Shown piece after piece: positions 43,711 through 50,336 of a stretch of DNA of 64,000 nt. The notes under the pieces are model-generated. The model did no database searches and was not told the origin of the DNA. It was given only the letters and a program-made list of their open reading frames with translations. Position numbers and translations under genes: made by a program. Every line of letters starts with the position of its first letter. Position 1 is the stretch's first letter. The stretch covers positions 1-64,000 of the forward strand of contig JAISTH010000018.1 of assembly GCA_031272715.1 (NCBI GenBank), in the 5' to 3' direction. The DNA is from Desulfovibrio sp. (GTDB taxonomy: Bacteria; Desulfobacterota; Desulfovibrionia; Desulfovibrionales; Desulfovibrionaceae).

Positions 43711-46083
43711 ATGATCGACTACGCCCAGAAGCTCAACGCCGCACAGCTCGAGGCCGTCACCTACCCCGACGGCCCCATCCTCGTGGTGGCCGGCGCCGGC
43801 ACCGGCAAGACCCGCACCATCGTATACAGGCTCGCATGGCTCGTGGAGCACGGGGTCCCCAACTCCTCCATCCTGCTCCTCACCTTCACCCGCAAGGCCG
43901 CGGCCGAGATGCTGAACCGCGCCGGGAACCTCCTCGACCAGGGATCCCTCGGCATCCAGGGAGGCACCTTCCACGCCTTCGCCTTCAGCGTGCTGCGACG
44001 CTACCCGCCCCTCTGGCTCGAAGGCAGGCGCTTCACCGTCATGGACGGCCCGGACATCTCCGATGCCATGGCCATCTGCAAGGAAAGCGTCAGGGATGCG
44101 AAGGGCACGTCCTTCCCCAAGCCAGCGGCCCTCGTGTCCCTGTTCAGCAAGGCGCGCAACCTCGAGCTTCCCCTCAGGGAACTCGTGATGCGCGACTACC
44201 AGCACCTCTTGATGTACCTCGACGCCCTTGAGGCCATCGAAAAGGCGTACAGCAAGTATCGCCGCGAAAACTGCCTGCTGGACTTCGACGATCTGCTCCA
44301 CGAGCTCGAAGCGCTCCTGTCGGCCGACGATGCGGACGCCGCGGCCCTGCGCCGCCGCTACTCACACATCCTGGTGGACGAATATCAGGACACCAACCGC
44401 ATCCAGGCGAGGCTCACGCGACTGCTCGCCACGCCCCTCGCCGGGGAGACCGGCGGGAACGTCATGGCCGTGGGGGACGAGGCGCAGTCCATCTATTCCT
44501 TCCGCGGGGCCAGCGTCCGCAACATCCTTGATTTCCCCGAGACCTTCCCGGGAGCGGTCGTCGTGCGCCTCGAGGAGAACTACCGGTCCACCCAGCCCAT
44601 TCTGGACGTCGCCAACCACATCCTCCTGAACGCCTCGGAATCCTACAGGAAGAAGCTCTTCACCAGGAGAGGCGAGGGCGTTCCCGTGCGCCTCGTGCGC
44701 CCGCTGAACGCCGACTCCCAGGCACAGCACGTCGCCAAGCGCATAACGGATTTCCTCAACGCCTACGCACCCTCACAGATCGCGGTGCTCTTCAGGGCGG
44801 GCTTCCATTCCTTCTCCTTGGAAGTGGCCCTCTCCCGCGCCTCCATCCCCTTCCGCAAATACGGCGGGCTCAGATACACGGAATCGGCCCACACGAGGGA
44901 TTTTCTGTCCTTCGCCCGTCTCGTCGTGCATGTCGGCGACCTGCCCGCCTTCACCCGCGTGGCCGCCATGCACCCCGGCGTGGGGGCGAAGACGGCCAAA
45001 CGCTTCCACGATATCTTCATGAAAGACGGAATCGAGGCCTTGGAAAAGGCGCTGGCCAAGCACCCCGACCTCGCGGACGACATCGCCTTCGTCCGGGAGC
45101 ACGCCGACTCCCCACCCGGCGTGGCCCTGCCCGCCATACTCGAACGCTACACCCCGAGACTCCAGAAGCTGTATCCCATGAACTGGCCGAAGCGGGCCCA
45201 GGACCTGGACGAATTGCTGCGCATGTCCGCCGGCTACACCGACATGGAACTCTTCCTGGCGGACATCTCCCTGGAGGTGCCGGACGACAAGGAGGGCGGC
45301 GAACACGTCGTCCTGTCGACGGTGCATTCGGCCAAGGGACTGGAGTGGGACGCGGTGTTCATCATCGATCTCGTGGAGGACCGATTCCCCTCCTACCACG
45401 CCAAGAAGGACAGGCAGCTCTTCGAGGAGGAGCGGCGCCTCTTCTACGTGGCCTGCACGAGGGCCCGCCATCGGCTGGAACTCTACTCCCCTCTCACCGT
45501 CTTCAACCAGAAGTACCAGTCGAACGTCACCGCCGAACCCAGCTGCTTCGTCAGCGAACTGCCTTCCAGCCTGCGGGAGGAGTGGGTGGAGATGAACAAC
45601 GGCAAGCTCGTCTGCGCAACGCTCCGGAGCGCCTCCGGAAGTCCGCGCACCGGGCCCGTCCAGGCGGAACCCGTCCAGGCGGAACCCGTCCAGGCGAAAC
45701 CCGTCCAGGCGGAACCCGTCCAGACGGAGCCGATCCCGTCCGCAGGCCCAGCGAAGGAAGGGGCGCCATGCAGGCACAGGATCTTCGGCGAGGGGAAGAT
45801 CGTCAAGCTCGTGACCCACGAGGCGGCGGAGGTGTCCTTCGCGAACCACGGCATCAAGACCATCATGGTCAGCTATCTCACCTTCGACGATCCGCCTCTG
45901 GAAACCATCCGGCTTGAGCCCGTCCCGCCCGCTGACCCCGCGAAGGAAGGGGCGCCATGCAGGCACAGGATCTTCGGCGAGGGGAAGATCGTCAGGCTCC
46001 TGTCCCCCGAGATGGCGGAAGTGTCCTTCGCGAACCACGGCATCAAGACCATCATGACCAGCTATCTCATCTTCGACGATTAG
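43711..46083 (+). CDS. UvrD/PcrA/Rep-family ATP-dependent DNA helicase with duplicated C-terminal domain
   Basis: LNAAQLEAVTYPDGPILVVAGAGTGKTRTI; VDEYQDTNRIQ; VMAVGDEAQSIYSFRGA; LSTVHSAKGLEWD. Confidence 0.93.
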   Translation: MIDYAQKLNAAQLEAVTYPDGPILVVAGAGTGKTRTIVYRLAWLVEHGVPNSSILLLTFTRKAAAEMLNRAGNLLDQGSLGIQGGTFHAFAFSVLRRYPPLWLEGRRFTVMDGPDISDAMAICKESVRDAKGTSFPKPAALVSLFSKARNLELPLRELVMRDYQHLLMYLDALEAIEKAYSKYRRENCLLDFDDLLHELEALLSADDADAAALRRRYSHILVDEYQDTNRIQARLTRLLATPLAGETGGNVMAVGDEAQSIYSFRGASVRNILDFPETFPGAVVVRLEENYRSTQPILDVANHILLNASESYRKKLFTRRGEGVPVRLVRPLNADSQAQHVAKRITDFLNAYAPSQIAVLFRAGFHSFSLEVALSRASIPFRKYGGLRYTESAHTRDFLSFARLVVHVGDLPAFTRVAAMHPGVGAKTAKRFHDIFMKDGIEALEKALAKHPDLADDIAFVREHADSPPGVALPAILERYTPRLQKLYPMNWPKRAQDLDELLRMSAGYTDMELFLADISLEVPDDKEGGEHVVLSTVHSAKGLEWDAVFIIDLVEDRFPSYHAKKDRQLFEEERRLFYVACTRARHRLELYSPLTVFNQKYQSNVTAEPSCFVSELPSSLREEWVEMNNGKLVCATLRSASGSPRTGPVQAEPVQAEPVQAKPVQAEPVQTEPIPSAGPAKEGAPCRHRIFGEGKIVKLVTHEAAEVSFANHGIKTIMVSYLTFDDPPLETIRLEPVPPADPAKEGAPCRHRIFGEGKIVRLLSPEMAEVSFANHGIKTIMTSYLIFDD
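45658..45732 (+). repeat. 15-bp coding tandem repeat (GTCCAGGCGGAACCC x5, imperfect)
   Basis: Encodes VQAEPVQAEPVQAKPVQAEPVQTEP. Confidence 0.93.
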
Positions 46084-46101: not shown

Positions 46102-47082
46102 ATGTCGCCACTGCTCTCGGAAGACGCCATCCTCGCCCGCATCGCCCGGCACTTCCCGGAGACGCATCCCGGCCTCGCCGTCGGGCGAGGGGACGATGCC
46201 GCCCTGCTCAAGAGGGGGACGCCCCTTGCGGTGAGCACCGACATCTTCCTGGAGGACGTCCACTTCCGCGATGCCTACTTCACGCCTGAAGACGTGGGGC
46301 ACAAGGCCCTGGCCGTGAACCTCAGCGACATGGCCGCCGCGGGAGCCGTCCCCGTCGCCTTCACCATGTGCCTCGGACTCGGGACGGACGTTGACGCCGA
46401 CTGGCTGGACCGATTCCTCCAGAGGATGGCCGTACTGGCCAAGACGTTCGACGTCGCCCTGGCAGGGGGGGATCTTTCCCGCTCCCAGAGGACGATGATC
46501 GCGATCACCATCTTCGGGGCCCAGGAGGAGGAATTCCTCCCCCGGGGCGGCGCCGCCCCCGGCGACTGCATCTTTTGCGTCGGTCCGCTGGGGCTCGCGA
46601 GAGTCGGCCTGGACGTGCTGGAGACCGGAGGCCGCAAGGAGATGGAAAGCTGGCCGGATGCCTGCGCCGCGCACCTGCGCCCCATCCCCCTCGTCGCCGA
46701 TGGCCTTGCCATCGCAAGGCAGCCAAGACCCTTGACGCTCATGGACATCTCGGACGGCATCGTCCGCGACCTGCCACGTCTGCTTGCGGCGGGGGGCCGG
46801 TCCGATCTCGGGGCGGAACTGCTCCTCCCCCGGGAGCGCCTGCATCCTGAAGTGATGCGCCATGCCGCCGGCAAGGGGCTCGACCCCGTGGAACAGGCGC
46901 TGCTGGGAGGCGAGGACTACGGCTTGCTGGGAACCTGCAAGCCCGCGGCCCTTGCATCCCTTCTGGCCGCCGTGCCCTGGGCGTTTCTCTTCGGCACGGT
47001 CACCGGGGACGGAAAGATCTTCTGCAACGGCAGATCCCTGGCGGCGTTGCGGGGATTCGACCATTTCGAGGCCGGGACCTGA
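46102..47082 (+). CDS. thiL: Thiamine-monophosphate kinase
   Basis: GRGDDAALLKRGTPLAVSTDIFLEDVHF; DISDGIVRDLPRLL; LLGGEDYGLL. Confidence 0.88.
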   Translation: MSPLLSEDAILARIARHFPETHPGLAVGRGDDAALLKRGTPLAVSTDIFLEDVHFRDAYFTPEDVGHKALAVNLSDMAAAGAVPVAFTMCLGLGTDVDADWLDRFLQRMAVLAKTFDVALAGGDLSRSQRTMIAITIFGAQEEEFLPRGGAAPGDCIFCVGPLGLARVGLDVLETGGRKEMESWPDACAAHLRPIPLVADGLAIARQPRPLTLMDISDGIVRDLPRLLAAGGRSDLGAELLLPRERLHPEVMRHAAGKGLDPVEQALLGGEDYGLLGTCKPAALASLLAAVPWAFLFGTVTGDGKIFCNGRSLAALRGFDHFEAGT

Positions 47083-47123
47083 CCTGCAGGTCGATGGATC
47101 GGATCTCGACCTCCGGAGGGGAC

Positions 47124-48026
47124 ATGCCATACTCGGACATGATGTTGAGGGATGCGCCGCTGGCGAAGAAGGGAAAATACCGGCTGCCGGGGGGCGAGGA
47201 CGGGTTGTATCTGGAGGTCGGCACGGCCGCCAAGTCCTGGCGCATGGACTTCAGGTTCAAAGGCAAGCGCAGGACCATGACTCTCGGGCAATATCCCGCG
47301 GTCTCGCTGGCCGATGCCCGCAAGGCGAGAGACGCGGCGAAGGCCTTGTTGCGCCATGACATCGATCCCGCCGCCGAGGGGGGACAAAGGATGAAGGAGG
47401 CGCACAAACGGGTGGAGGACAGGGAAAGGCGGAGCGGGCTGCAACACCGAAGGTCGGTGGCGTGCGCCAAGCTGTGCGACCTGTGCCGTGAGGCCAGCGC
47501 CAGCGGACTCATGTGCGGTTGCAGCGGGAACGCCAGCGTTCGGGTCGCCGGCAACGACTTCGTCATCACGCCGACGGGAAGACGCAAGAGCGCTCTGACG
47601 CCGGATGACGGCATCCACATCGTCGAGGGCCGACCGCTCGACCTGGTACGGCCTTCGTCGGAGATGCCGATGCACCTGGCCGTCTACGAGTCGAATCCCT
47701 TCATCCTGACCATCCTGCACACCCATCCCGAGGCCCTCTCGGCCCTGGGCCTGCTGCGGCCGGACGGGCCGCTGCTGCGGTCGGAACTCTTCGAGACGAA
47801 GGCGGTGCGGAAACGGCTTGTCCGGGTGCCGGCGCTGCCTCCGGGCAGCGAGGAACTGGCCAGGGCCGTGGGGCACGCCGCAAAGAGCCATGCGGCGATC
47901 TGGATGGATCTGCACGGTCTCGTCTGCGTGGGGGAGACGAGCGAGGAGGTCCTCGCCCTGAGCGAGGCCCTGGAACATCTGGCGAGAATCGAGCTGCTTG
48001 CGGCAGGCCGAGGTGCGCAAGCCTGA
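47124..48026 (+). CDS. Fusion of integrase arm-type (DUF4102-like) DNA-binding domain and class II aldolase/adducin domain
   Basis: GGAGGGGAC SD before ATG; GKYRLPGGEDGLYLEVGTAAKSWRMDFRFKGKRRTMTLGQYPAVSLADARKARDAAKALLRHDIDP then SGNASVRVAGNDFVITPTG, HTHPEALSAL, WMDLHGLVCVGETSEEVL. Confidence 0.82.
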   Translation: MPYSDMMLRDAPLAKKGKYRLPGGEDGLYLEVGTAAKSWRMDFRFKGKRRTMTLGQYPAVSLADARKARDAAKALLRHDIDPAAEGGQRMKEAHKRVEDRERRSGLQHRRSVACAKLCDLCREASASGLMCGCSGNASVRVAGNDFVITPTGRRKSALTPDDGIHIVEGRPLDLVRPSSEMPMHLAVYESNPFILTILHTHPEALSALGLLRPDGPLLRSELFETKAVRKRLVRVPALPPGSEELARAVGHAAKSHAAIWMDLHGLVCVGETSEEVLALSEALEHLARIELLAAGRGAQA

Positions 48027-48028
48027 GG

Positions 48029-49996
48029 TCACCCCTCCTGAAGCATCGCGGCGATCTCCTCGCGAAGGATCTTGGCGGCCGCTGCGGCGGCGGCCTTTTC
48101 CAAGGTCTTCTTCATGCGGGGTTCCAGATCGGACACCGTCTGCTTCAAGGCCTCCAGTTCCGTCTCCAGATTCCTGACCGCGCCCTCGGACGCCTCCCGG
48201 TCCTGTTCCACCGCCGCGGCGATCATTTCCGCAAGGCCGGTCATCAGCGGGCCGTTCTCCTCCAGCAGGGCCTCGAGCGCCTCGATGCGCTCCCCGGCGT
48301 TATGGAGGGCCTCCTTCATTTCGTCCGGAGCCGCTCCGCCTTCCGCCTGGGCGCCCTTCTCGGCGATCCTGGCTTCAAGGGACTGCATCTGCGACTCCAG
48401 CGTCTGATGGACCTCGTCGATCCGGTCCGCGATCTGGATGCCGAACTCCTCCAGCACCGCCTCCATGCGGGTGAAGACGGGGCTGTCCTCGTGAAGGATC
48501 GCGTCCATGACGTCATCCAGCGCGAGAGGCGGCTGGCCGTGCTGGGCCTCCAGTTCCAGGATGCGGTCCTGGGCGACGGAGAGGGCGGTCTCGCAGGACT
48601 CGAGACGTGTCAGCAGTTCCGTCATGTCGATGGGCTGATCCATCCCTGAAGGCTGCTGGGGGCGACGCCCGGAGGGGGCGTCAAGGGGCTCCCGACCTTC
48701 GGCCTGGGGGACGTCCTCTTCGGCCGTTCCGGACGGGGCTTCGTCAAGCGGAGGCTGGTCCGGGGCCGGGGCGGACGTGTCCGCCCCAGGTTGCGGCGTG
48801 GCCGCGGCCTGGGCCATGAACGCGTCGAGATCCTCCGTGGAAACCGGCGTCTTCGGGGCCGTGGGGGCCGAAGGCGGCGGGGCGGGAGCAGGTGCCTCAG
48901 GCTCGGGGGCAACCTGCCCCTCGGCCAGCAACGCATCCAGATCGTCCGAGGAAAGCGGCGTTTTCGGGGCCGCGGGGGCCGAAGGCGGCGGGGCGGGAGC
49001 GGGTGCCTGAGGTTGCGGCGCGTCCTGTGCCTGGGCCAGCAAGGCGTCCAGATCGTCCGAGGAAAGCGGCGCTTTTGGGGCCGCAGGGGCCGAAGGCGGC
49101 GGGGCGGGAGCGGTCGCCTGGGGTTGCGGCGTGTCCTGCGCCTGGGCCAGCAAGGCGTCCAGATCGTCCGAGGAAAGCGGCGGCGCGGGGGCTGCAGGCG
49201 ACGTGGGAGCTGCTGGCGGCGTAGGGGGTGCAGGCGGCGCGGCGGGTGCCTGTGCCTGGGACTGTTGCGCTGCGCTCGCTGCCGCATCGGCATGCGCCAG
49301 CAGTTCGTCCAGATCGAAATCATCCACCGGAGCAGGAGCGGGAGCGGGAGCCTCAGGGGGCGCCTCGGCCGGCGCGGATTCCGGCTCGCCCGCGTCCGGC
49401 GTCTCGGCCACGTTGATGGCACCGTCCACGGCCGAAATGAAATCATCCAGGGCCGCGGACATCTTGGCGACGCCCGGGGGTTCGGGAAGGGACGACGCCG
49501 TCTCGGCCGGCTCGGCCGAAGGAGGTTCGGCGGGTTCCTCAGCGGGCTTTCTGGCCGGTTTCTTTTTCTGGTCGGGCGGAGCCACGGCCGCCGCGAGCAG
49601 GTCGTCCACTTCCGCGATGGGGGCCGTCCGGGGCTGCTCGGCGGGAGCCTCGCGCCGTTGCGGAGGACCGCCCAGACTGCCGAGACTCGCGAAGAGATCG
49701 TCCGCCTTCCCCATGCCGGACATGTCCAGCTTCTCGTTGGGATCCACCACCCCGGGACGTTCCTGTCCCACGGACTCCACGGGCTTCCCCGATCCGGCCT
49801 GTTCCGACACCCCGACCATCTGGTCCAGCAGGCTGTCGACGTCTTCCTCGGACTGGTCCGAAGGCGATCCGCCGAGATCCGGGCCCCCCCCGTCCTGAGA
49901 GGCTTTCCCAGGTTCCTGCGCACGGCTCTCACCCTTCTCGATGAGGTCGGTGAGGTCGAATATCTCGCCGTCTTTCTCAGGAGTCTGTGTGGCCAT
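48029..49996 (-). CDS. Acidic Pro/Ala-rich protein with repeated DLDALL peptides and C-terminal coiled coil
   Basis: ATG MATQTPEKDGEIFDLTDLIEKGE; four 37-aa repeats; C-terminal heptad-like region. Confidence 0.75.
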   Translation of the reverse strand: MATQTPEKDGEIFDLTDLIEKGESRAQEPGKASQDGGGPDLGGSPSDQSEEDVDSLLDQMVGVSEQAGSGKPVESVGQERPGVVDPNEKLDMSGMGKADDLFASLGSLGGPPQRREAPAEQPRTAPIAEVDDLLAAAVAPPDQKKKPARKPAEEPAEPPSAEPAETASSLPEPPGVAKMSAALDDFISAVDGAINVAETPDAGEPESAPAEAPPEAPAPAPAPVDDFDLDELLAHADAAASAAQQSQAQAPAAPPAPPTPPAAPTSPAAPAPPLSSDDLDALLAQAQDTPQPQATAPAPPPSAPAAPKAPLSSDDLDALLAQAQDAPQPQAPAPAPPPSAPAAPKTPLSSDDLDALLAEGQVAPEPEAPAPAPPPSAPTAPKTPVSTEDLDAFMAQAAATPQPGADTSAPAPDQPPLDEAPSGTAEEDVPQAEGREPLDAPSGRRPQQPSGMDQPIDMTELLTRLESCETALSVAQDRILELEAQHGQPPLALDDVMDAILHEDSPVFTRMEAVLEEFGIQIADRIDEVHQTLESQMQSLEARIAEKGAQAEGGAAPDEMKEALHNAGERIEALEALLEENGPLMTGLAEMIAAAVEQDREASEGAVRNLETELEALKQTVSDLEPRMKKTLEKAAAAAAAKILREEIAAMLQEG

Positions 49997-50336
49997 GGAA
50001 AAACCTCTCGCGTTGCTGGGATCCGCAGATCCGCAAAACCGCCAAGGGCGCGTCCCGCGATGCGCCCGTCGCCCCGGGGGACGATGCGCGGCACTGCCCA
50101 TCCGGCATCGGCGAATCCTCCCGACACCGAAACGTCAAGGTGGCACGATTTATGCTATGTACGTCAATATCCCCGAACAGTATATCCCGGTTCGCCCGGC
50201 ACGTCCACCTTGCCGATTCGAGCGGGCACGCTCATGTCTTGTCGGACGTTTGCCCGCGAACCTTTATGGGGTCCGTCGGCGTCCAACCCTGGGTCGCGTC
50301 CGCGACTCCGGCCTTCCGTCCCCGGGGCCCGGACGC

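Follow-up and report, generated by a model that had tools for sequence, protein, structure and literature searches.

The window analysed here, 64,000 nucleotides of contig JAISTH010000018.1 from Desulfovibrio sp. (assembly GCA_031272715.1), contains an open reading frame (positions 47124..48026, + strand) that encodes a 300-aa protein, P0001, in which the arm DNA-binding domain of a tyrosine integrase is joined through a linker to a class II aldolase. We think it probable that this gene arose by a lineage-specific event in which a native aldolase gene captured, in frame, the 5' fragment of an integrase gene.

The P0001 frame is open from the ATG at 47124 to the stop codon at 48024-48026. Within it, Pfam places the arm domain (Arm-DNA-bind_3, PF13356) at aa 17-85 (47172..47378; 74 bits, E 9.7e-21, cut-off 27) and the aldolase domain (Aldolase_II, PF00596) at aa 116-291 (47469..47996; 121.5 bits, E 4.8e-35, cut-off 22.2), the latter match spanning the full-length domain (profile positions 2-183 of 183). 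A phmmer search against the PDB returned the arm of the HAI7 integrase (3ju0, E 3e-15) as well as L-fuculose-1-phosphate aldolases (E 1e-14), and the similarity to integrases begins at aa 1, ahead of the Pfam arm domain. The catalytic domain PF00589 (Phage_integrase) has no match in P0001 or anywhere on its contig, the six matches in the genome all being located on other contigs. The sequence-only reading had described an arm domain at the N-terminus, its continuation in frame into a class II aldolase and a missing catalytic integrase domain, and these matches bear that description out. P0001 thus resembles integrases of the IntSXT/P4 type (DUF4102; HPI and HAI7 arms, 3jtz, 3ju0 and 3rmp) in arm sequence and predicted fold but, unlike them, has no core-binding and catalytic domains and hence cannot be a recombinase. 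Similarly, it shares with FucA-like class II aldolases the full-length PF00596 domain, the HTH and HG histidines, the catalytic Glu and the phosphate-loop motifs and differs from them in its N-terminal extension of 112 residues, made up of integrase arm and linker.

Comparison with related genomes indicates that the aldolase is the native part of the fusion and that the standalone form is ancestral. A thiL-like gene with an AIR synthase-related N-terminal domain (46102..47082, + strand; Pfam AIRS, 89 bits) precedes the fusion, its stop being at 47082 and the ATG of the fusion at 47124, and its orthologues upstream of the aldolase in relatives are 50-62% identical. The gene order uvrD-thiL-aldolase is that of the relatives, with the arm segment added. 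In every congener for which an aldolase match is listed (64 of 64), the aldolase is standalone and located downstream of thiL on the same contig and strand, which answers the question of the ancestral form raised by the sequence-only reading. The distance between the thiL and aldolase matches is 37-333 nt in 46 of these congeners and 956-1394 nt in the other 18; the larger gaps, where read, contain another gene. The standalone homologues that were read lack an arm; their N-terminus is variable and short, the domain being preceded by ~15-45 residues. When a profile of congener integrase arms was run in six frames over the fetched thiL-aldolase loci of relatives, including those with gaps of 200-330 nt, no arm was found, and the segment is present at this site in this genome only. 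The assembly, which is 80% complete, has no Aldolase_II gene besides the fused copy, which is hence the true orthologue rather than an additional duplicate.

Several features of these loci were noted in passing. In one relative (L009), the gap between thiL and the aldolase holds a 308-aa open reading frame that looks glycosyltransferase-like by eye. The UvrD-like helicase of the window (43711-46083, + strand) carries PVQAE repeats, and its C-terminal EGAPCRHRIFGEGKIV (tudor-like) unit is duplicated. On the other side of the fusion, a 690-aa protein without a Pfam match (48029-50101, - strand) is encoded by a gene with 111-bp tandem repeats at 48762-49198, which encode units of the form SSDDLDALLAQAQ..PAPPPSAPAAPK.

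The best reading of the aldolase gene is that it is a working one, as predicted from its kept catalytic residues. E180, H199, H201 and H264 align with metal and catalytic positions of FucA, in which H92, H94 and H155 are the Zn ligands and E73 is the catalytic Glu, the roles being matched to P0001 by alignment. The GNAS, TPTG and PSSE motifs are all kept, as are 22 of the 22 near-invariant positions (conserved at 95% or more across the remaining sequences). None of the NCBIfam equivalog cut-offs was reached by this domain. In the tree, the P0001 aldolase has a long terminal branch of 0.95, whereas that of this genome's thiL is 0.49; this is modest evidence that the aldolase has changed faster, and other taxa in the tree show it too.

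The junction between the two parts falls within ~aa 87-112, since a profile of integrases fades out to aa 102 and a profile of aldolases sets in at aa 100. The former was built from 17 genus integrases, among them 2 records that overlap and both represent the integrase of this genome itself, and it aligns aa 1-102 with 90 bits and with a confidence that drops after ~aa 85; the latter was built from the aldolases of 56 relatives. The linker so delimited (aa 87-112; 47382..47459, + strand) is basic. AlphaFold predicts one continuous helix, aa 82-126, that connects the arm with the aldolase, and it models the arm with a pLDDT of 85-97. By Foldseek, the arm model matches 3ju0 (rmsd 0.9), 3jtz and 3rmp with E values of 1e-6 to 4e-5. 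The alignment given to AlphaFold was supplemented with viral arms and two aldolases; the arm is confident in this model, and the aldolase half is weak because only two aldolases were supplied, so we make no claim on how the arm packs against the aldolase. A single-sequence prediction of P0001 gave a poor model (pLDDT 43).

The arm itself is recognizable and, judged from its model, foldable and intact, albeit somewhat off consensus. It scored 77 bits with PF13356, versus 83-104 bits for the ~150 best arms of congener integrases, while the true arm-type integrase of its own genome scored 58 bits, below the fusion arm. Its net charge is +5.6, compared with +6.6 to +9.7 for congener arms. The segment has no stops, a GC3 of 0.85 and a host-like codon structure. 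The nearest integrases found are only ~45-58% identical to it, and therefore no close donor was identified among the genus, class and phylum-sample genomes and the viral contigs; in the latter, the best matches were 42-49% identical over the whole arm and at most 61% over 56 residues. The congeners are rich in integrase arms, and some of these lie in truncated open frames of ~116-213 aa, from which it follows that stray 5' integrase fragments are common in the genus.

Short arm frames of ~126-188 aa without the remaining integrase are frequent in the genus (for example, G007:C6, G045:C92, G021:C1:2875350 and G025:C2:88327); some lie at contig ends, and others could represent remnants or arm-only proteins. 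We also observed that PHROG 3423, a family of 157 positions and unknown function, matches the fusion arm and that, on other contigs of the genome studied here, tyrosine recombinases occur in pairs on opposite strands, the two members lying within ~3 kb (G000:C51:30338-33084 and G000:C79:36147-38944).

As far as we searched, the arm-aldolase architecture is a singleton. No second match was found in the genus (79 genomes), in the class (348) or in a sample of the phylum (395; the sets overlap), and none was found in plasmid or phage records. Scans of GTDB and viral contigs with degenerate patterns, which were peptides of the exact protein and reach close relatives only, likewise returned no arm-aldolase. 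The literature likewise yielded no relevant account of an aldolase fused to an arm or to TrmO.

We propose that the aldolase gene downstream of thiL gained ~300 bp in frame at its 5' end and that the donor would have been an IntSXT/P4-type tyrosine integrase, which contributed its arm domain and the start of the next linker; the remaining integrase and any surrounding element would since have been lost. Smyshlyaev et al. (2021, PMC8138268) assign arms of the DUF4102 type to IntSXT, a subgroup of the integrases of mobile elements, and report that members of the major IntSXT clusters insert close to essential genes. The fragment may have been left by an integrated element or brought in by illegitimate recombination. 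The simplest account, we infer, is that a residual 5' fragment located downstream of thiL was joined in frame to the aldolase via a deletion or illegitimate recombination. This route is putative, as no direct repeats bracket the arm segment, no second DNA copy of the segment exists elsewhere in the assembly, and no remnant of an integrase or element adjoins it. After such a capture, the enzyme would remain a class II (Zn) aldolase of the sugar-phosphate type, and the arm would be a tolerated passenger, aided by the predicted helical linker that enters the first helix of the aldolase. It is also conceivable that selection acts on the arm, which contains no stop and shows no obvious decay. A direct repeat that matches at 17/19 positions links thiL (46899-46917) to the arm (47183-47201); weighed as a possible trace of recombination, it was set aside, being likely a chance match in GC-rich coding DNA.

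For the sequence-only reading, the gene was either a frozen integration scar or a domesticated DNA-binding metabolic enzyme. The ancestral standalone aldolase, the presence of the arm in this genome only and the lack of recurrence favor the scar. In the strict sense, however, the scar is only a putative one: the search for attachment-site repeats revealed no direct-repeat pair around the arm, and no remnant of a catalytic domain was found. The enzyme interpretation has as its sole positive evidence the intact-looking fold of the arm and loses ground with an architecture that recurs in none of the genomes searched, an outcome that the sequence-only reading had itself named as refuting. The other refuting outcome that it named, translation from the aldolase alone, may also apply, given the strong Shine-Dalgarno-like sequence before the ATG at 47391.

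The same aldolase family has acquired other N-terminal partners in relatives. In one relative (L010:1045-2019), the N-terminal domain of TrmO, the tRNA m6t6A methyltransferase, is fused to this class II aldolase, as confirmed by Pfam, and by-eye reading points to the same TrmO_N-aldolase in many order-level relatives (L004, L007, L014 and L029). Two genomes from a different genus of this family encode ThiL (AIRS domain) and the class II aldolase in a single open reading frame (L051:848-2566 and L059:599-2392), in agreement with the conserved thiL-aldolase neighborhood. These fusions resemble P0001 in the aldolase family and in the N-terminal position of the partner and differ from it in that their partners are housekeeping enzymes and that each occurs in several genomes, whereas the arm fusion is found in one. 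The N-terminus of the aldolase thus tolerates, or even favors, the addition of domains, so that a viable fusion with an arm comes as less of a surprise. The fusions also hint that the aldolase works with ThiL or TrmO.

The capture we propose has to be weighed against the possibility, which we regard as rather unlikely, that the enzyme is made without the arm from an internal start and that the arm sequence is a relic, either untranslated or with an initiation of its own. An in-frame ATG, Met90 (47391..47393, + strand), could serve as such a start, and its predicted product, a plain aldolase of 211 aa, would have a length ordinary for standalone homologues and close to that of the congeners' proteins. 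Seven nucleotides before it lies a Shine-Dalgarno-like GAGGGGGG (47376..47383, + strand) with the strongest anti-SD pairing among the candidates (-11.7 kcal/mol); only 1.2% of the window's ATGs pair as well. However, the ATG at 47124 is likewise well served, with a Shine-Dalgarno-like GGAGGGG (47115..47121, + strand) that pairs at -10.0 kcal/mol, a value matched by 3.7% of the window's ATGs. An arm segment that is stop-free and host-like in its codons also speaks against initiation at 47391 only, and Met90 falls inside the weakly aligned integrase-linker part of the profile, so that an ancestral start is not required there.

A domesticated DNA-binding enzyme, in which the expected FucA-like tetramer would display several arms and be recruited to specific DNA, for example, in gene regulation or sugar-phosphate sensing, seems to us improbable. 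The arm is basic and is confidently modelled as an integrase arm, the linker is predicted to be a single helix continuing into the aldolase, and the aldolase family accepts other N-terminal partners, all of which would suit such a role. However, the architecture occurs once, no candidate binding site was found, and the arm is less charged and scores lower than most genuine congener arms. Nor are there signs of a regulator, the thiL-aldolase arrangement and all catalytic residues being retained. The more specific version, in which the fusion is expressed and selected and the oligomeric aldolase binds arm-type sites through its several arms and so couples a sugar-phosphate enzyme to DNA, we hold to be very improbable. 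A misjoining of a mobile-element fragment between thiL and the aldolase during assembly is the least credible reading: the draft is in 101 contigs, 80% complete and probably metagenome assembled, and the architecture is unique, but the expected syntenic neighbors lie on both flanks, so that a chimera would need two breakpoints within ~400 bp, and the insert is in frame, has a host-like GC3 and lacks a second copy in the assembly.

If the fusion protein is made, in-frame capture at this locus would represent a conserved metabolic gene caught in the act of gaining a mobile-element domain, with the ancestral gene and its neighborhood known from dozens of relatives, and one could then test directly whether gaining such a DNA-binding domain is neutral or useful. 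If the internal start alone is used, the arm would be an ordinary genomic scar. As for the role of the enzyme itself, the TrmO and ThiL fusions of this thiL-linked aldolase may tell more than the arm does.
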